Of a stretch of 44,129 bases of DNA, positions 9,014 to 23,883 are shown piece after piece (within the stretch, counting starts at the first letter, position 1; each line of letters opens with the position of its first letter). This DNA is from Candidatus Poseidoniaceae archaeon (GTDB lineage Archaea > Thermoplasmatota > Poseidoniia > Poseidoniales > Poseidoniaceae): the NCBI GenBank assembly GCA_028821785.1, contig JAPKFC010000006.1, positions 1 through 44,129 of the forward strand, written 5' to 3'. The position numbers were made by a program, and so were the translations under genes. The notes below the pieces were generated by a model. That model did no database searches, was not told the origin of the DNA, and saw nothing but the letters and a program-made list of their open reading frames with translations.

Positions 9014-10018
9014 TCAGTTGATTGATGTGAACATTTCATCAGGCATTTGCTGAGCCAGTGCTAAAGCACCAGTAGCAACCTTGTCAATTGGGTCTTCAAC
9101 ACACCAGACATTTACATCACCGATATCGGAGATTTCGTCAGCAATACGAGCCGCTAATCCTTCGATTAGAGAGCCGCCACCAGAGATGATGACATTGTTA
9201 CGAAGAACTGGTTGATATTCAGGGTCTGCGCCAGCAACGATTTGCTTGATACCGTTTCCGATCTTTGGAATAATTGATTCACATGCTTCTTGAACTAGGT
9301 CTCCGATGTCTACCACTTGTTTCTTACCTTCAACTGAAAGTTCAACAATTGCTTCACGAGCATCTCCGCCAACGTAGGAAACTTCTTCTTTCCAACGGCG
9401 AACCATGTCCTTGGTTACTTGAGCGCCAGTGTACTTCTTTCGGATCAGGTCCATTAGTGCCTCATCCAACCAATCTCCAGCTTCTTGAAGAGTAATTTGG
9501 TCTTCTTCGGTTGGGAATGTTCCGTAAATACGTGCAATATCAGTTGTTCCAGCGCCAATATCTACTACGATAGAACTAGCGATTTCTTCAATTCCGAATG
9601 CTGTAGCGAATGGTTCAGTAACTACCATTATGGCATTTACTTGTCCACGAAGTGTTGCAACTAGGTTGGACTTGTCAGTGAATGAAACGTGAGATGGTGA
9701 GCAAATTACTCCGAATACCTCATCGAATTCTTCAGGGTCTACTGTTTCCAATAGGTGAGAAACAAACGCCTTTGCAGCAGCAAGGTTTGCATCATCATCT
9801 TGAGCAACTCCAGCAGCCATTGGGCGGTATATATTACATGCCAACTTGTTCTTCAAAGCATCATTTCCGAAAAGAACATCTCGCCCGAGGAAGTTACGAG
9901 CAATAGGGTCTTTCGGTCGTCCAACAACAGTTTCAATTGTGTGGCTTGCACCAGCACTTGACGCGATTGTTGATTGGTATGTTCCCAAATCGATTCCTAC
10001 GTAGAGTCTTTCTCCCAT
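9014..10018 (-). CDS. MreB/MamK-like actin homologue
   Basis: A 334-residue actin-superfamily ATPase. The phosphate-1 motif is VGIDLGTYQST (residues 7-17), the phosphate-2 motif VVDIGAGTTDIA (151-162) and the adenosine motif ISGGGSLIEGL (278-288). E135 in TEPFATAFG matches the catalytic position of MreB/MamK, and that stretch looks closer to MamK than to DnaK. The length is that of a prokaryotic filament-forming actin and no membrane anchor is seen. I chose ATG 10018 because GGAAGGTGA lies 6-7 bases upstream; a longer frame from 10072 lacks such a site. The coiled-coil gene follows on the same strand. A role in shape, division or positioning is inferred from the family. Confidence 0.87.
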   Translation of the reverse strand: MGERLYVGIDLGTYQSTIASSAGASHTIETVVGRPKDPIARNFLGRDVLFGNDALKNKLACNIYRPMAAGVAQDDDANLAAAKAFVSHLLETVDPEEFDEVFGVICSPSHVSFTDKSNLVATLRGQVNAIMVVTEPFATAFGIEEIASSIVVDIGAGTTDIARIYGTFPTEEDQITLQEAGDWLDEALMDLIRKKYTGAQVTKDMVRRWKEEVSYVGGDAREAIVELSVEGKKQVVDIGDLVQEACESIIPKIGNGIKQIVAGADPEYQPVLRNNVIISGGGSLIEGLAARIADEISDIGDVNVWCVEDPIDKVATGALALAQQMPDEMFTSIN

Positions 10019-10029
10019 TTTATTCACCT

Positions 10030-10050
10030 TCCGCGTTGCGGACAGACCGC
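10030..10050 (-). promoter_or_regulatory. Two mutually exclusive mini-hairpins next to the actin ribosome-binding site
   Basis: On the minus strand the block CCGC can pair with GCGG on its left (10038-10050, 4 bp, loop of 5) or with GCGGA on its right (10030-10042, 5 bp, loop of 3). The right-hand arm directly abuts the AAGGTGA ribosome-binding site of the actin gene. Stems this short are marginal, so a translational switch is only a possibility. Confidence 0.25.
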
Positions 10051-10115
10051 CGAGGATGCCACTACCCTTCAAGGTTCACCTTCACTAAAAAGGGATGATA
10101 TCTGCATGCGTAAGC

Positions 10116-16172: not shown

Positions 16173-16220
16173 ACAATTTTCATCGCATGTTTGATGTGCA
16201 AGAATGGTGGCGTGAGTAAT

Positions 16221-16925
16221 ATGGCGTATGTGACCGAGGCAGAGGGAGAATCTACTCCGACCGTCCTTATCGTCGATAATAACCCAATGTCAATAACCAG
16301 ATTGAGCAATATTTTCAAGGTCAAAGAATTCAAAATTGAAATTTGCGAAGATGGCGATAAAGCGGTTGACGAATACATTAGGTTAGACCCTGAATTAGTG
16401 GTTTTATCTTTAGACATACCATCATTGGATGGCCATTTAGCCGCTTTGGAAATTAGAGAGCACGGTGGAGAGGGGAGGATTATATTTGTTGCACCAAAGC
16501 ACCAAGCGCAATTAGCAGCAGACGCAGCATATTCAGCAGGGGCGGTAGCATGGCTTCAAAAACCAGTCATCACAGCAGATTTGGATAAGATTTGGGAAAC
16601 CGTTCTCGGACCAATTCCTGAAGCACCAGGGTTAGCAGATTTGGATAGTTTATATCCAGAAGATCGCATTAAACCCGAAGAAGATTCTGGGCCAATGCCT
16701 TTGCCAGGATTGCCACCTCTGCCAATGCCAAACGCAGATGGAACATTACCCGCTTTGACGCTACCTCCATTGGAAATGCCATTATTGGTGGTTGAAGAGG
16801 CTGACAACAAGCCAAAACGCAAGATAAAGGGTCTGAAGAAAATGCTATTGTTGATAGCGCTATTAGCAGGTGCTGGTGGTTATTGGTATTATCAAACAAT
16901 TATGATGAATTCTCCGCTCTTTTGA
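16221..16925 (+). CDS. Membrane-anchored degenerate receiver (REC-like) protein
   Basis: A 234-residue protein with a CheY-like fold at about 12-130, starting TVLIVDNNP. The usual second acidic-pocket residue is N20 instead of D. The phospho-acceptor position is serine (S63 in ELVVLSLDIP, four residues before P67, where CheY has D57). The conserved threonine is replaced by alanine near residue 91, while lysine K114 (WLQKP) is kept. It therefore probably cannot be phosphorylated in the normal way. A proline-rich linker (about 150-195) leads to a basic patch (KPKRKIKGLKK) and one C-terminal membrane helix, so the receiver faces the cytoplasm as a tail-anchored domain. I chose ATG 16221; a TTG at 16191 is in frame. 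Its partner is unknown. Confidence 0.78.
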   Translation: MAYVTEAEGESTPTVLIVDNNPMSITRLSNIFKVKEFKIEICEDGDKAVDEYIRLDPELVVLSLDIPSLDGHLAALEIREHGGEGRIIFVAPKHQAQLAADAAYSAGAVAWLQKPVITADLDKIWETVLGPIPEAPGLADLDSLYPEDRIKPEEDSGPMPLPGLPPLPMPNADGTLPALTLPPLEMPLLVVEEADNKPKRKIKGLKKMLLLIALLAGAGGYWYYQTIMMNSPLF

Positions 16926-16931
16926 CCACAG

Positions 16932-17924
16932 TCAAGGAACTCTTTTGTCCATTATAGTTTTCCATAACGGTGGAATAAGGGCTAACCAAAAACACACATA
17001 GTATCCATATGGCAGTTGTGGAGCTCCTTCTTGAGCGCGCAAATTCCACATTGGATCACTGGCTTTTAGATGATGAGCGGGATGAAGGGGCAACTCCAAC
17101 AAAGTCCAACGAGACCACAATTTTCTGCTTTCCCAAGAATGGGCACTCGTTTGTTTTTCTCCATCTTCAACGCGAAGTCCATAGTGCTGTAAATAATTGA
17201 CAAACTCTAGTAAAATAATTGCAACAGTAGCAGAAAGCAAGAATGCCAATGCAGCATTAAGGCTAAGCCCATAGTAAAGCCCTGCGACAAAGGCAATCTG
17301 AATCATTAAACTATGTAATATTGGATTTTTTATTCCTTTACGCCCCTTATCCGAATGAGTTTTCCATGCCGAAATAAACTGGAGGGGTATTGTTCTGATA
17401 ATTTGAATCCACAAACCTCTGCCCTTTGGTGAAGAAGCAGGATCTAATTCTGTCGCATAATGGCGGTGATGTCCATGGTTATGTTCGGTTGTATAATGCA
17501 TATACATCACCCATAGCAAATTGAGTCGCCCCATTCGCCAAATTAGTGACCCCTTTTTTCGATGTCCCTGCTCATGTGCATTGACAATAGCTGAAATACC
17601 ACTGACCAGCCCAACCGATATTGCACCTACAATTGTTGTAATTATTAAACCGTCCAATTGAGCGCGGTACATCAGAGCAGATAACGCCAATATCGCAGCA
17701 ATACTATGGCCGAAAAGTAAGAGATTCCACGGCGTGGGGGATAGTTCACTATTTCGACTCGGTATACCTTCAGGAGATAACAAGTCCAAGATAGGGCCAA
17801 TACCCAAGCCCCAAATTATTCCACTCGCAGACCACCACCCACCTTGTAATAATCCAGCGATTGTTACAATTGGTAATATGAATCCGAGCAGATGAGGTTT
17901 CCAACTCTCAATCCGCTCCTCCAT
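16932..17924 (-). CDS. AlkB-type integral-membrane diiron monooxygenase (alkane hydroxylase-like)
   Basis: A 330-residue membrane protein with all nine histidines of the AlkB diiron centre: H117 and H121 (HEQGH), H148, H152 and H153 (EHNHGHHRHYATELDPAS), H247 (NYLQHYGL), and H281, H284 and H285 (LHPAHH). The C-terminal block GAPQLPYGYYVCFWLALIPPLW is also closely AlkB-like. The family hydroxylates terminal carbons of alkanes or related hydrocarbon chains, using O2 and electrons from rubredoxin. It is somewhat shorter than bacterial AlkB (about 400 residues), and no rubredoxin or rubredoxin reductase gene is in the window. I chose ATG 17924; TTG 17939 is in frame. It is convergent with the receiver gene, 6 bases apart. 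The substrate could be an alkane or a lipid chain. Confidence 0.88.
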   Translation of the reverse strand: MEERIESWKPHLLGFILPIVTIAGLLQGGWWSASGIIWGLGIGPILDLLSPEGIPSRNSELSPTPWNLLLFGHSIAAILALSALMYRAQLDGLIITTIVGAISVGLVSGISAIVNAHEQGHRKKGSLIWRMGRLNLLWVMYMHYTTEHNHGHHRHYATELDPASSPKGRGLWIQIIRTIPLQFISAWKTHSDKGRKGIKNPILHSLMIQIAFVAGLYYGLSLNAALAFLLSATVAIILLEFVNYLQHYGLRVEDGEKQTSAHSWESRKLWSRWTLLELPLHPAHHLKASDPMWNLRAQEGAPQLPYGYYVCFWLALIPPLWKTIMDKRVP

Positions 17925-17972
17925 GAACCAACCAAGCAAGCATTTGTATTCAATATGAAGGTTGAAATGACA

Positions 17973-18248: not shown

Positions 18249-19043
18249 TCAACGGTTTAGTAATGCGTGCCAAGAAACCTCAGCATATTTCGCCGCTTGT
18301 TGCGACGGGTTATCTGCCATGTGAATGCCTGAACCGACGATAATACAGTCTGAGCCAGCATTGACCGCTTGTGCAGGATCGCCATAACGCTGACCCATTT
18401 CACCATCACCAACAGCAAGGTTAACACCCGGAGTCCAGATCATCTTTGCTTCGCCAACAGCCTTGCGTAACTCCCGTAACTCATCTGGTCTAGAGCCATT
18501 GCCAATGAAACCGAATACTCCATCATGTGCCTTTCCTTTCTCAACCACTTGAGCGGTATATTGAGGATTTAGCAAATTGCCACGAGAAGACATTTGCGCC
18601 AATAACAAGACTCCTCCTTGCCTATTGACATCAGCCCATCCGGCTTGAAGTCCATCAACGATATCAGGCCCAGAGATTAGATGGGCAGTGACCAAATCAG
18701 ACCAAGAACGAATATCATAAACTCCAGCCATTTGATTTCGAGATATTTTTCCAATATCAGCGAACTTCCTATCTTCAAAAATTATCAAGTCGGCCGCTTC
18801 TGCTTTTGCACAGAATGCTGCCCAAGAATCAGCAGTCCAATCATCCACCAAGTCAACATGAGTTTTCAATGCTGCAATATGCTGGCCGACTTCATCAATC
18901 AATTGATTGAGACCAGCCATGGTTGATCTATCGGCAGCCAAACAAACCAAACTTTGCTTGCGGCAAGCCACTTCCATGTAGCGTCTAGCCATTGGCAAAG
19001 TGTTCTCCTGCCATCGCTTTCCCCACACCTGTGGCGCTTCCAT
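18249..19043 (-). CDS. pyrF: Orotidine 5'-phosphate decarboxylase, eukaryotic-type
   Basis: Catalyses the last step of UMP synthesis. The 264-residue product carries LKTHVDLVDDW and the catalytic block IIFEDRKFADIG (D-x-K-x-x-x-D). It also has AQMSSRGNLLNPQYT, FGFIGNGS, TPGVNLAVGDGEMGQRYGDPAQAV and DCIIVGSGI. The FEDRKFADIG form and the SS-(K/R)-G block match the fungal/animal URA3 type rather than the usual archaeal or E. coli types. I chose ATG 19043 because it gives an N-terminal length like that of yeast; a TTG at 19085 with a weak AGGT site is an alternative. It follows the SDR gene on the same strand. Confidence 0.92.
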   Translation of the reverse strand: MEAPQVWGKRWQENTLPMARRYMEVACRKQSLVCLAADRSTMAGLNQLIDEVGQHIAALKTHVDLVDDWTADSWAAFCAKAEAADLIIFEDRKFADIGKISRNQMAGVYDIRSWSDLVTAHLISGPDIVDGLQAGWADVNRQGGVLLLAQMSSRGNLLNPQYTAQVVEKGKAHDGVFGFIGNGSRPDELRELRKAVGEAKMIWTPGVNLAVGDGEMGQRYGDPAQAVNAGSDCIIVGSGIHMADNPSQQAAKYAEVSWHALLNR

Positions 19044-19095
19044 AATACAGGCCAGCGGCTCTTTGTCCTCAATCCTTGCGGCCAAATGACCTATA

Positions 19096-20094
19096 TTATT
19101 GACTAATAGAATCTATTGAATCTACAAGGGTTTGTTGGTAATCGGTAAAAACAAAATCAAGCTCCTGCTCAACATTTCCAACATCATATCCGATTCGCAC
19201 ACCCAGGTTTCCTCGTAATTGTTTAATGGAAAGTTTAGAGTGGAAAATAGCCATCAAGTAAGCAATAACCGAAGGTACTTTTCTGGTAGCCCATTTCCTC
19301 TCCGGTTTTAATTTACACAACTCTGCACCGATCTCATGCATCCACATGCCACGTTTATGAAGGAGATAACGTTCACCATCTTGACCATTAGTCAATGCGC
19401 TAACATGGGCTTTGGCAACATCTCTAACATCAACAAAATTGATATTAATTTTCAAAACAAACGGTCGTCCAGAATTAAAATGTTCCATATAAGACATTGA
19501 ACCATTCTTATGTCTTGCAGACAATATTGGGCCGAAAACAATAGAGGGGTGGATGGTTATTAGGCGTGGTTTTGAATCTTTATCTTGCCCTTCAACCCAT
19601 TGCCGCATTACCTTTTCAGCGCCCGCCTTAGCAAGTCCATAGGGATTAGATTTGACAGTAGCATCATCACACCAATCTGCAGCAGAAAAGATTGTTCCGT
19701 TTTCATGTGATGTATTTCTAATGGCAGCAACCGAAGAAGTGTGAATAATTCTTTCAACAACACCCGCTTGCTGTAATGCTTTCACCAAATTGCTAGTTCC
19801 TTCAATACTGGGGTCTACAATATCTTTCTGAGCGTCATTTGCTCCAACTGGGAGTGAAGCAGCACAATGAATCACATCTTTACAATCAGAAACTGCACTG
19901 CGAACACTAGCAAAATCGAGTAGATCCATTGCAACGATTTGAAGCGATGCACCGTTTACAAGTGGAAGTGAATTGAGAAATATGGCATTTTTTGGATTGC
20001 GGACAGTAGCGCGAACTTGCGCTCCGGACTGCAATAATTGCGCTACTACGTGGCTGCCGATGAAACCGGCAGCCCCTGTTACCAATACGGGCAT
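19096..20094 (-). CDS. NAD(P)-dependent epimerase/dehydratase (extended SDR, dihydroflavonol-reductase-like)
   Basis: A 332-residue Rossmann-fold enzyme with the N-terminal nucleotide-binding motif VLVTGAAGFIGSH. It also has DVIHCAASLPVG (substrate/cofactor wall), the catalytic Y-x-x-x-K in NPYGLAKAGAEK and a serine-rich strand TSSVAAIRNT. The sequence after it (ITIHPSIVFGP) matches dihydroflavonol-4-reductase/3-beta-HSD-like extended SDRs. The substrate could be a sterol-like, sugar-nucleotide or aldehyde compound and is not determined. The stop is 53 bases before the pyrF ATG on the same strand, so they are probably co-transcribed. Confidence 0.85.
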   Translation of the reverse strand: MPVLVTGAAGFIGSHVVAQLLQSGAQVRATVRNPKNAIFLNSLPLVNGASLQIVAMDLLDFASVRSAVSDCKDVIHCAASLPVGANDAQKDIVDPSIEGTSNLVKALQQAGVVERIIHTSSVAAIRNTSHENGTIFSAADWCDDATVKSNPYGLAKAGAEKVMRQWVEGQDKDSKPRLITIHPSIVFGPILSARHKNGSMSYMEHFNSGRPFVLKININFVDVRDVAKAHVSALTNGQDGERYLLHKRGMWMHEIGAELCKLKPERKWATRKVPSVIAYLMAIFHSKLSIKQLRGNLGVRIGYDVGNVEQELDFVFTDYQQTLVDSIDSISQ

Positions 20095-20181
20095 GCAGCG
20101 CCTTTACAGCAATAGTTCAATAATTTACAGGTTGAAATCATTAGCATCACATTGATGAAAGCCGCATTACAGGGCAAAGTG

Positions 20182-21966
20182 ATGCGCATAGCCTACCTGC
20201 TAGTCTCGCTAGTCCTATTGGGGCCGATGGCAGGGTGCTTTGGTGGAGACTTATCCAATGCCATTGACGATGATAAAGAAGGAATGTATCCATCGATTTG
20301 GCAACGCCACGACCTCGATTGGAATTGGACTGATAGTTATTCTTACACCCTTCAACCAGGGCCCCATCATGCCTTAGAAGTTCAAGAGGCAACCTTTGAA
20401 GTGGATACTTCTCAGGTTTGGGAAACAGGACCTTCAACCTCAAATATACATCTTTCATATTGGTTACCATCTAACACGGAAAGCGGCGACCAAGTTCCTG
20501 TAATAGCAGTAATAAGTCCGTATTTTTCATTCGGCCAACAAGGTTCAGAGTCCGGAGCAACCAATGTCGTAGGTTCGGGGCGGGGCGAATTTATTTACGA
20601 TAATTTCATTCCACATGGATATGCATTTGCTCAAGTTTCCGTGTTTGGAACCGAGGAATCAAGCGGTTGTTTTGACTATCGCGGAGAAGGTGAAGGATGG
20701 GGAATTCATCAAGCGGTGGAATGGTTAGGAACTCAAAATTGGTCTAATGGGAAAGTTGGCCTATATGGGAAATCATACGAGGGTGCAACCCAATGGGAAG
20801 CTGCAGTACATGGTAGCGATTACCTTGCGACAATAGTGCCAATTTCAGGAACAACCGGATTACATCCATTGCTTTACAAAAATGGTAGCGCAGAAGCACG
20901 AAGTCAAGTAATGCACATGAACTATTTTTCAAGCACCGTTGACTATAATGCCGAGGATTTAGACAACATCTGTCCTGATATTGTCGAGGGTTTTTTTGCA
21001 GGTCCAGTGACATACGGGATGGGAGAACTAGACCCATATATGTCAAATTATTATGAGGAAAGGGAACATATTTCAAAGGCGCTAAACAACTACCAAGGTA
21101 GCGTTTATTGGGTACAGGGGATGCAAGATTGGAATGTAGACCCCCACCAAGTATTTCCTTGGTATCAGCAATTTAGAGATCAAGGGTTTGAAGTCAGAGG
21201 AATGCTTGGGCAATGGGGGCATAATTATCCAGACCAATGGAGCAAACATAACGCTCAAGATTCAGGTTATGGTGGTGAAGCGATTGACAATATGACTCGT
21301 TGGGATTGGGCCCAAGATTTGTTTGAATGGTTTGAATACTATCTCAAAGGAATAGGGCCGAAACCCGACTTAATAGCCCAAATACAGCGAAACGATGGCC
21401 AATGGCGCATTGAAGAAACCTGGCCGCCATTAGATGCACAATGGACAACACTAGATCTATCTGAATGTAGCCAAACTGGAACAAGAGTGGGCGGTACCTC
21501 AGTTATTGGAGGAGGACTATCTACTGTAACCATTGAATGTGGAGCACTAGATGAGCAGTTAGATACACTAATTTCAGGATTACTAACCTTGCACTTAGAT
21601 GTGACAGCAGCAATGGATGGGGGGCAAATTTTTGTCGAAATGCAGGATGCTGAAAGCGGATTGCGAATTGGCCACGCCACTATGGATATTCGCTATTATC
21701 AAGGTGGAAGTGAGCCAACAACAGTCTTGCCAATGCAGTCTTTAACGATGCTAATGGAATTCCAAGCGATAGACGCAATATTGCCAGCAGGACATGGAAT
21801 AAGATTGGTAATGACTGAAACCGGAGAAGATTATCTCGCTCCCGCCTGTGGAGTTTCCTGTCCAATCACCGTTAATGGAGGTGCTTTTTCAATTCCACAT
21901 TTATCACGTGATGATAGTAATGCTCTCATCACACCACAAAGCGAAGAAGCAGCGAATAATCAATAA
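20182..21966 (+). CDS. S15/CocE-type alpha/beta hydrolase lipoprotein (X-Pro dipeptidyl-peptidase-like)
   Basis: A 594-residue exported protein. A signal peptide ends in the lipobox M-A-G-C (lipidated Cys 19). The catalytic domain has GLYGKSYEGATQW (nucleophile Ser in G-x-S-Y-x-G), the acid in QGMQDWNVDPHQ and the histidine in LGQWGHNYPDQW. A beta-jellyroll follows from about residue 415 (C-terminal S15 domain). The family cleaves X-Pro dipeptides, cocaine-type esters or glutaryl-amides; peptides are the likely substrate here. I chose ATG 20182 directly before the signal peptide; earlier in-frame starts add about ten residues that do not look like part of it. It stands alone, divergent from the SDR gene. 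Confidence 0.87.
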   Translation: MRIAYLLVSLVLLGPMAGCFGGDLSNAIDDDKEGMYPSIWQRHDLDWNWTDSYSYTLQPGPHHALEVQEATFEVDTSQVWETGPSTSNIHLSYWLPSNTESGDQVPVIAVISPYFSFGQQGSESGATNVVGSGRGEFIYDNFIPHGYAFAQVSVFGTEESSGCFDYRGEGEGWGIHQAVEWLGTQNWSNGKVGLYGKSYEGATQWEAAVHGSDYLATIVPISGTTGLHPLLYKNGSAEARSQVMHMNYFSSTVDYNAEDLDNICPDIVEGFFAGPVTYGMGELDPYMSNYYEEREHISKALNNYQGSVYWVQGMQDWNVDPHQVFPWYQQFRDQGFEVRGMLGQWGHNYPDQWSKHNAQDSGYGGEAIDNMTRWDWAQDLFEWFEYYLKGIGPKPDLIAQIQRNDGQWRIEETWPPLDAQWTTLDLSECSQTGTRVGGTSVIGGGLSTVTIECGALDEQLDTLISGLLTLHLDVTAAMDGGQIFVEMQDAESGLRIGHATMDIRYYQGGSEPTTVLPMQSLTMLMEFQAIDAILPAGHGIRLVMTETGEDYLAPACGVSCPITVNGGAFSIPHLSRDDSNALITPQSEEAANNQ

Positions 21967-22840: not shown

Positions 22841-22869
22841 CCGTCTAGCCAACCAACCGTTTGATACCT

Positions 22870-23883
22870 ATGATAGATAAAGCAAAACTGGAATATATTT
22901 GGCTCGACGGATACAGCCCGACACAAAACATGCGCAGCAAAACTTTGGTACGTTCTGATTTCGAAGGAACCCTTGAAGAATGCCCTATGTGGAATTTTGA
23001 TGGCTCCTCAACAAGACAAGCAGAAGGCAACTCATCCGACTGCCTACTAAAGCCGGTAGCAATTTATCCAGACCCACAACGATTCAGCGGTTTTCTTGTA
23101 ATGTGTGAAGTTATGAATGCTGACGGGACTCCGCATGCAAGTAATGGTAGAGCAACAATCGAAGATGATGATGAAGATTTTTGGTTTGGATTTGAGCAAG
23201 AATACTTCCTTATGGATGCAGAAACGCAACTACCTCTCGGCTTTCCAATGGGCGGTTATCCAGGGCCACAAGGAATGTACTACTGTTCAGTTGGTGGCAA
23301 AAATACGCACGGCAGATCTTTGGTAGAAGAGCACGCAGACCTATGCCTTGATGCAGGAATCAACTTTGAGGGAATCAACCAAGAAGTTGCCTGTGGTCAG
23401 TGGGAATTCCAAATATTTGCAAAGAGTGCTAAGAAAGCTGGAGATGAACTTTGGGTTGCTCGGTATCTTCTTGACAGATTAACAGAAAGTTATGGCTGTT
23501 ATATTGAATATCATCCAAAGCCGGTTAAGGGCGATTGGAACGGTTCTGGAATGCATGCTAACTTTTCAGATGGAAAAATGCGTGATGAAGGAGGAGAAGA
23601 CCTGTTCACGAAAATATGCGAAGAATTCGGCAAGAATGTTAAGAAGCACATGGATGTCTATGGTGAGTTTAACGACCAAAGATTGACTGGACTGCACGAA
23701 ACACAATCCATTGACCAATTCTCCTATGGAATTTCAGACCGTGGGGCGTCGATTCGCATCCCAATTACCGTACCCGAGGATGGGTGGGTTGGTCGTCTTG
23801 AAGACCGTCGCCCAGCCTCTAACGGCGACCCTTACAAGATTGGAGCAGTAATCATTGAGACTACCAAAGCCTCTTACAACTGA
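22870..23883 (+). CDS. glnA: Glutamine synthetase, type II (eukaryotic-type GSII)
   Basis: Makes glutamine from glutamate, ammonia and ATP. The 337-residue product has the GSII set: YIWLDG near the start, MWNFDGSSTRQAEG, VMCEVMNADG, FWFGFEQEYFL, GPQGMYYCSVG, CGQWEFQIF, KGDWNGSGMHANFS, RLTGLHETQ, SDRGASIRIPI and LEDRRPASNGDPY. These are motifs of the plant/animal/rhizobial type and not of the longer GSI (about 440-470 residues) usual in archaea. The length is slightly below the typical 350-370. I chose ATG 22870; TTG 22861 is also in frame. The HTH-CBS gene upstream is the likely regulator. The last 10 bases overlap the convergent SemiSWEET gene. Confidence 0.95.
   Translation: MIDKAKLEYIWLDGYSPTQNMRSKTLVRSDFEGTLEECPMWNFDGSSTRQAEGNSSDCLLKPVAIYPDPQRFSGFLVMCEVMNADGTPHASNGRATIEDDDEDFWFGFEQEYFLMDAETQLPLGFPMGGYPGPQGMYYCSVGGKNTHGRSLVEEHADLCLDAGINFEGINQEVACGQWEFQIFAKSAKKAGDELWVARYLLDRLTESYGCYIEYHPKPVKGDWNGSGMHANFSDGKMRDEGGEDLFTKICEEFGKNVKKHMDVYGEFNDQRLTGLHETQSIDQFSYGISDRGASIRIPITVPEDGWVGRLEDRRPASNGDPYKIGAVIIETTKASYN

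Follow-up and report, generated by a model that had tools for sequence, protein, structure and literature searches.

The stretch of DNA analysed here (the window, 44,129 nucleotides from a Candidatus Poseidoniaceae archaeon) encodes a genuine AlkB-fold protein, confirming the observation made in the initial annotation. The protein keeps all nine histidines of the AlkB diiron site but lacks the carboxylate that has been reported as a ligand of Fe2, and it belongs to an archaeal order in whose genomes a profile search found no rubredoxin. We consider, with a probability of roughly 0.5, that it is an alkyl-chain hydroxylase with biogenic alkanes as the most likely substrates and with a [2Fe-2S] ferredoxin feeding it electrons. 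The broader proposal, that the Poseidoniia possess working, ferredoxin-run alkane hydroxylases of AlkB fold with no carboxylate at this place of the iron site (Gln in about half of them and Arg in the rest), is put forward more tentatively.

The longest frame of the gene (16932..17939, minus strand) opens with a TTG and has 335 aa. There is an in-frame ATG at 17924 that gives 330 aa and agrees with the start region of the relatives and with the coordinates of the initial annotation. In Pfam the protein matches FA_desaturase (PF00487, E 2.9e-23), and a sequence search of the PDB returned 8sbb (4.4e-33) and 8f6t (5.9e-30), both FtAlkB, as the sole matches at E<=0.001. NCBIfam is uninformative here, as it had no match for the protein and likewise none for the AlkB and XylM controls (L034 and L038). 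Comparison with the 90% identical copy of the genome G015 gave a dN of 0.052 and a dS of 0.489, indicating purifying selection on a reading frame that is more than a chance one. Regarding the C-terminal AlkB block described earlier, the HYG / HSWES / HxxHH region is present but the protein ends in ...MDKRVP, lacking the additional tail (of variable length) found in four bacterial AlkB rows.

The iron ligands of FtAlkB are His 137, 141, 167, 171, 172, 272, 311, 314 and 315, together with Glu271 (PMC10113152). All nine histidines align with counterparts in the window protein (117, 121, 148, 152, 153, 247, 281, 284 and 285, counted from the ATG), as had been noticed from the sequence, and they are kept in 45 of the 45 archaeal rows of the same type (type 1), the window among them. 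Not included in this alignment were 9 rows that were short or nearly identical to others (four of them archaeal), L028, which represents the L133 gene, and L036, a desaturase. Glu271 has been reported as an Fe2 ligand (PMC10113152) and proposed as a proton relay; in a second FtAlkB paper the corresponding glutamate lies close to the other of the two irons, with an unresolved side chain (PMC10110569). At the place of this tenth ligand, on which the initial annotation was silent, the window protein has Gln246, and the description of a complete AlkB does not hold here, nor at the rubredoxin-docking patch, which is reduced (see below). The 45 archaeal type-1 rows have either Gln (23) or Arg (22), and a set of 65, obtained by adding 20 more genomes picked to widen the genus coverage, has Gln in 31 (including the window), Arg in 34 and Glu in none. 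Glu is found in bacterial AlkB (6/6), in Bacteroidota (26/26), in a second MGII type described below (type 2, 9/9) and in the plasmid relatives of the latter (2/2). Since Glu271 is absent from all 65 archaeal type-1 rows, the reaction might differ from that of AlkB.

Features of the alkB locus in the window (positions of the whole window)
Feature	Position	Strand	Remarks
AlkB-like membrane diiron protein	16932..17924	-	330 aa from ATG; coordinates include the stop codon
His box 3, H281..H285 (HPAHH)	17070..17084	-	coordinates from residue numbers
Q246-H247	17184..17189	-	Gln at the place of FtAlkB Glu271 (Fe2 ligand), then the equivalent of ligand His272; coordinates from residue numbers
His box 2, H148..H153 (HNHGHH)	17466..17483	-	coordinates from residue numbers
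His box 1, H117..H121 (HEQGH)	17562..17576	-	coordinates from residue numbers
Small ORF, 75 aa	17973..18200	-	N-terminus hydrophobic by eye; no Pfam match; adjoins alkB here as well as in G015 and G006
pyrF-like orotidine 5'-phosphate decarboxylase	18249..19085	-	upstream of alkB, same strand
SDR / NAD-dependent epimerase-type protein	19096..20094	-	upstream of alkB, same strand
S15-type peptidase	20152..21966	+	relatives also near alkB in L155, L156, L157 and L187

An AlphaFold2 model of the window protein, built from 46 sequences (pLDDT 96.2), was compared with known structures. Its fold is predicted to be that of AlkB from end to end, with a Z of 39.6 over 326 residues at 2.1 A against 8f6t (FtAlkBG) and of 36.0 over 328 residues at 2.5 A against 8sbb (FtAlkB); the Foldseek TMq values to the FtAlkB entries were 0.86 and 0.89. 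Far behind came a chloroplast motor complex, two chains of which gave Z values of 14.7 and 13.1 across 267 residues.

Homologues were detected by profile search in 151 of 193 Poseidoniales genomes, representing all 21 genera (the matches of G045, G167, G086 and G099 are fragmentary), and in 28 of a group of 40 relatives that includes the window's own genome. Restricting the count to genomes with little contamination and a completeness of at least 90% left 34, of which 24 carried the gene; it is therefore widespread but not indispensable. At the level of the phylum, with up to five candidates scored per genome, 103 of 389 genomes matched, all of them within the class and four outside the order (one of these four, G227, is fragmentary and contains a stop). 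No relative of the window protein appeared in viral contigs. Two records of 'Acinetobacter phage MD-2021a' (CAKLQH020000011.1 and CAKLQF020000009.1) contain alkB, possibly as host DNA.

Fourteen of the 193 genomes (G019, G058, G059, G082, G097, G106, G113, G127, G137, G151, G159, G162, G169 and G175), from six genera and both families, carry instead type 2, for which the match spans only about positions 96-328 of the profile. The nine that were read (L133 and L146-L153) encode proteins some 375 aa long that keep Glu at the Fe2 ligand place (in a single row one His position is unread). Among the genes near them are those for FtsZ, DnaJ, a protein of isocitrate-dehydrogenase type, DUF1246/DUF1297 and TSP_3. 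Types 1 and 2 were never found in one genome; naive Fisher tests, which ignore the tree beyond a check within one genus, gave 8e-9 for the order (1e-8 without the four fragments) and 9e-4 within genus g1. This mutual exclusion suggests that both types do the same job. Type 2 groups with proteins of Hydrocarboniclastica and Polaromonas (support of 97, with a long-branch warning) and branches outside the set formed by the AlkB, Bacteroidota and archaeal type-1 rows. The Hydrocarboniclastica gene adjoins a Fer2-FAD-NAD reductase, and in Polaromonas the Fer2-FAD-NAD domains and the AlkB part are fused into a single protein of 752 aa, followed by genes for a GMC oxidoreductase, a long-chain acyl-CoA ligase and an aldehyde dehydrogenase. 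A three-domain ferredoxin-reductase-AlkB enzyme of this kind has been expressed and was active, according to a review (PMC8918992).

A protein with this fold could also modify the lipids of the cell itself, in which case fatty acyl chains or isoprenoid ethers, and not alkanes, would be hydroxylated or desaturated, a reading that we regard as unlikely. It would suit the presence of the gene in all 21 genera, as expected from a standing cellular role, and the Pfam domain is named FA_desaturase; moreover, the carboxylate-free site recalls SCD1, which has a water at a similar place (PMC10110569). However, the similarity of the model to SCD1 (Z about 6, over 177-184 residues) is far from that to AlkB (Z 36-40), and 10 of the 34 genomes at least 90% complete show no copy, so that the gene is dispensable. 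In addition, the gene is replaced by type 2, whose bacterial kin in Polaromonas sits in a gene set of alkane type. The initial annotation had contemplated action on the cell's own isoprenoids, and two lipid genes are indeed in the window, but the GGGP-synthase-type and the geranylgeranyl-reductase-like genes lie about 10 and 8 kb off, and none of the annotated conserved neighbours of alkB in other genomes is a lipid-synthesis gene. The annotated neighbours in archaea are mostly housekeeping genes, which counts against the favored alkane reading too, and several loci have a wyosine-type radical SAM, PiT/PhoU, FtsX-type permease and ABC genes, or a cupin nearby.

The kinship of the alkyl-chain hydroxylase that we favor was examined in three quick maximum-likelihood trees. 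From 80 homologue loci 56 were translated and the 24 left out were all bacterial; four split or fragmentary loci (L026, L027, L029 and L030) were not used. Archaeal type 1 formed one clade in the three trees, with SH-aLRT supports (no bootstraps were calculated, and these trees contain several long branches that come together) of 99 with 45 archaeal rows (after omission of 9 short or near-identical rows, four of them archaeal), 100 with 35 (after omission of L028, which is the L133 gene, the desaturase L036 and 12 further near-duplicates) and 100 with 65. This is a clade of its own and not a part of bacterial AlkB, which forms another; the closest bacterial rows are those of Bacteroidota. In the tree with 35 archaeal rows, archaeal type 1 shares a set with bacterial AlkB and Bacteroidota, with XylM and type 2 outside it (96, with the root assumed on XylM), a placement that is compatible with AlkB kinship. 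The window gene groups with that of G015 and then with the copies of g12, g14 and g15 (a set of five, 99), while other genomes of its own genus, g1, carry a type about 45% identical to it. This last observation made us suspect a lateral gain by the genus, a suspicion weakened by the origin of the nearest rows after G015 in g12, g14 and g15, where an S15 peptidase is also found near alkB. The best explanation is that the Poseidoniia as a class (MGII together with some MGIII) have an old alkB-like gene that was mostly inherited vertically.

The same trees bear on the idea of a XylM-like enzyme acting on methyl groups of aromatics or terpenoids, which appears improbable. The three XylM rows also have Gln at the Glu271 place (as do two alphaproteobacterial rows), they share a short loop before HSW/HAW with the archaeal proteins, and they have an adjacent Fer2-FAD-NAD reductase. 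Against it, the XylM rows fall outside when the root is assumed on them, identity is just 23-24%, and Arg takes the place of Gln in half of the archaeal rows. Besides, no XylA-like fused reductase was seen in the neighbourhood of the gene in the window or in the own genome (G000, 86% complete); in G000 there are only two Fer2 matches, one in a frame of 117 aa and the other in one of 226 aa (some relatives have longer Fer2 frames), and the sole PF00175 protein combines FAD_binding_1 and NAD_binding_1, the make-up of a CysJ-type flavoprotein. These findings on G000 count against the favored ferredoxin-fed reading as well.

The electron donor is the other point at which the archaeal proteins depart from AlkB. 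The initial annotation had pointed out that no rubredoxin lies near the gene, and this can be extended to the own genome, 86% complete, to 40 relatives and to the 193 Poseidoniales genomes, none of which had a match to PF00301, a profile that was positive in 7 of 14 control genomes. Among 22 genomes of bacterial relatives with AlkB-like proteins (within L065-L119, 20 of Bacteroidota or similar and 2 of Alphaproteobacteria, of unstated completeness), only two had a match, in frames of 472 and 504 aa. Along these lines, the six columns that correspond to the rubredoxin-docking arginines of FtAlkBG have a mean of 2.3 basic residues in archaea, versus 5.3 in bacterial AlkB (five rows with 6/6 and one, Rhodococcus or other, with 2/6), 3.8 in Bacteroidota and 3.0 in XylM. 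The loss of the patch is partial, since the columns of FtAlkB 143 and 287 are still basic in 44 and 45 of the 45 archaeal rows, respectively.

Those two columns would fit an AlkB of the usual kind, driven by a rubredoxin that has diverged too far to be recognized by PF00301, and in Alphaproteobacteria rubredoxin-like cysteine motifs have been described in a disulfide isomerase (PMC10654063). Given the complete lack of matches in 193 genomes with a profile that recovers half of the controls, and the reduced docking columns, we find this quite improbable. A Dokdonia with AlkB and without AlkG and AlkT assimilated 13C-hexadecane (PMC10654063), although the position of its AlkB in the tree is outside our analysis. 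In bacteria, two of 56 loci (L072 and L114) have a Fer2-FAD-NAD reductase next to alkB, and a motif scan of the same 56 found no rubredoxin. As for the archaea, none of the annotated neighbours of alkB is an adjoining partner gene. A small plant-type [2Fe-2S] ferredoxin is present in 154 of the 193 genomes; in G000 (G000:C54:7600-7944, L122) its gene is away from alkB, near peroxiredoxin- and thioredoxin-like genes (names given from reading the sequence). A first impression from 40 genomes that this ferredoxin co-occurs with AlkB disappeared in the order-wide test, in which no association was seen (122/29/32/10, p 0.52). Cytochrome b5 (PF00173) was found in none of 40 genomes, a weak test as the control was positive in just 1 of 14. 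A ferredoxin is the putative donor to the archaeal AlkB-like enzyme, against which the separate location of its gene and the missing association speak.

The archaeal gene context indicated earlier was corroborated by domain searches, with FtsY (TIGR00064, above its cut-off), prefoldin (above the Pfam cut-off and below that of TIGR00293), a protein of the PcrB/GGGP-synthase type, a geranylgeranyl-reductase-like and a TYW2-type protein. The order FtsY, DUF1844, response regulator, alkB, 75-aa ORF, pyrF, SDR and S15 peptidase is found also in G015 and in G006, whose contig breaks within alkB. The 75-aa ORF has gaps of 48 bp towards both alkB and the pyrF-like gene, and the three genes may possibly be on one shared transcript. 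The lineage of the window has a different arrangement around alkB from the other archaeal loci, with the nearby S15 peptidase in common; the presence of this peptidase at L155, L156, L157 and L187 suggests that the arrangement in the window may have arisen from theirs by rearrangement. The mainly bacterial record of AlkB could bring to mind contamination with bacterial DNA or a chimeric assembly, but this was rejected as extremely improbable given the even composition (GC of 0.41-0.47 along the window), the archaeal neighbours, the gene order shared with G015 and G006, the homologue (L046) in the single-contig MG-II chromosome record CM001443.1 and the purely archaeal clade.

Three other genes of the window are described here for their own sake. 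The response regulator (16191-16925, plus strand) has a receiver domain, a proline-rich part and a hydrophobic C-terminal segment (by eye), with no output domain in Pfam. An archaeal MreB/actin-family protein is encoded at 9014-10072 (minus strand; PF06723 5e-25; Salactin 6e-6, under its cut-off). At 22861-23883 (plus strand) there is a glutamine-synthetase-like protein of just 340 aa, with its best match to positions 15-155 of 344 of the catalytic profile.

Returning to the alkyl-chain hydroxylase fed by ferredoxin, the reaction could proceed as follows. A hydrophobic alkyl chain would enter from the membrane to the nine-histidine diiron site, where O2 would be activated and a terminal C-H hydroxylated. 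The likeliest substrates would be biogenic n-alkanes, for example those produced by cyanobacteria, and the alcohol would be handed to fatty-acid beta-oxidation. Instead of rubredoxin, a [2Fe-2S] ferredoxin would supply the electrons by way of a separate reductase; the small ferredoxin found across the order (in the own genome G000:C54:7600-7944) is the likeliest candidate. FadB-like or enoyl-CoA-hydratase-like matches were found at up to about 6.5 kb from alkB at 6 of the 10 loci compared (the FadB-like label was confirmed in Pfam for L043 and L132). We infer the hydroxylation, the alkane substrate and the link to beta-oxidation from this set of data, and alkane turnover by the archaeal enzyme appears plausible.

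The presence of alkB in MGII is not new. An MGII alkane 1-monooxygenase has been in print since 2018 and up to 2023 (PMC6461757; PMC8166890; PMC9535955, citing the former study; PMC10703444), and it was given as enriched at the MGII crown node (PMC10703444). On the other hand, when 1,246 archaeal genomes were surveyed with KEGG, alkB was listed in a single nanoarchaeal genome only (PMC9535955). Another work, with no mention of 'alkane', attributes some fatty-acid degradation to all MGII families (PMC6336850), in agreement with the proposed link to beta-oxidation. In our literature search, centred on papers open without subscription, we found no description in MGII of the lost glutamate or the absence of rubredoxin, nor of a Glu-type AlkB that replaces archaeal type 1. 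Love et al. (Nature Microbiology, 2021) reportedly dealt with pentadecane and wrote 'possibly archaea' in this regard.

Among the planktonic archaea that live in surface waters, MGII are said to be the most abundant (PMC6461757), and phytoplankton hydrocarbons are a large pool in comparison: the output of marine phytoplankton is given as about 100 times that of seeps and human sources (PMC10176705). If the proposal is true, alkane consumption would be an ancestral trait of an archaeal group that ranks among the most abundant in the surface ocean. Genome studies count the MGII gene as alkane 1-monooxygenase by label, and the changed iron site together with the lack of rubredoxin means that this label needs testing before alkane turnover is deduced from it. 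The 65 sequences are a natural substitution series at the one acidic ligand of AlkB, which makes the role of Glu271 directly testable; if alkanes are hydroxylated, the glutamate proposed for AlkB catalysis would be dispensable.

A way to place the archaeal protein is to compare it with the known systems. It resembles AlkB (FtAlkBG 8f6t and FtAlkB 8sbb) in the fold, over 326-328 residues, and in the nine His ligands, and differs in having Gln or Arg for Glu271, 2.3 of 6 docking columns basic, no C-terminal tail and no rubredoxin found in the order. The AlkB-like proteins of Bacteroidota (Winogradskyella, Saprospiraceae, Chitinophagales and others) are the nearest bacterial rows, with 30-38% identity, and few of the genomes searched have a rubredoxin (2/22, two of the 22 being Alphaproteobacteria); unlike the archaeal ones, all 26 rows keep Glu271. 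The three-domain enzyme of Polaromonas and MGII type 2 are likewise of AlkB type without rubredoxin, and type 2 replaces type 1 in 14 genomes, but both have Glu271 and are outside the archaeal type-1 clade, and in the two bacteria the reductase is fused or adjacent. XylM (pWW0) has the same Gln as Q246 of the window and a Fer2-FAD-NAD reductase, not a rubredoxin, as neighbour, yet it belongs to a separate clade, with 23-24% identity, and no XylA-like protein was seen in G000. The archaeal protein is thus AlkB-like in its fold and its histidines, and its chemistry is probably AlkB-like too. Three defining features of AlkB, however, were looked for and not found, namely the carboxylate, a rubredoxin partner and a full docking patch, and we therefore class the protein not as AlkB itself but as an AlkB-like variant.
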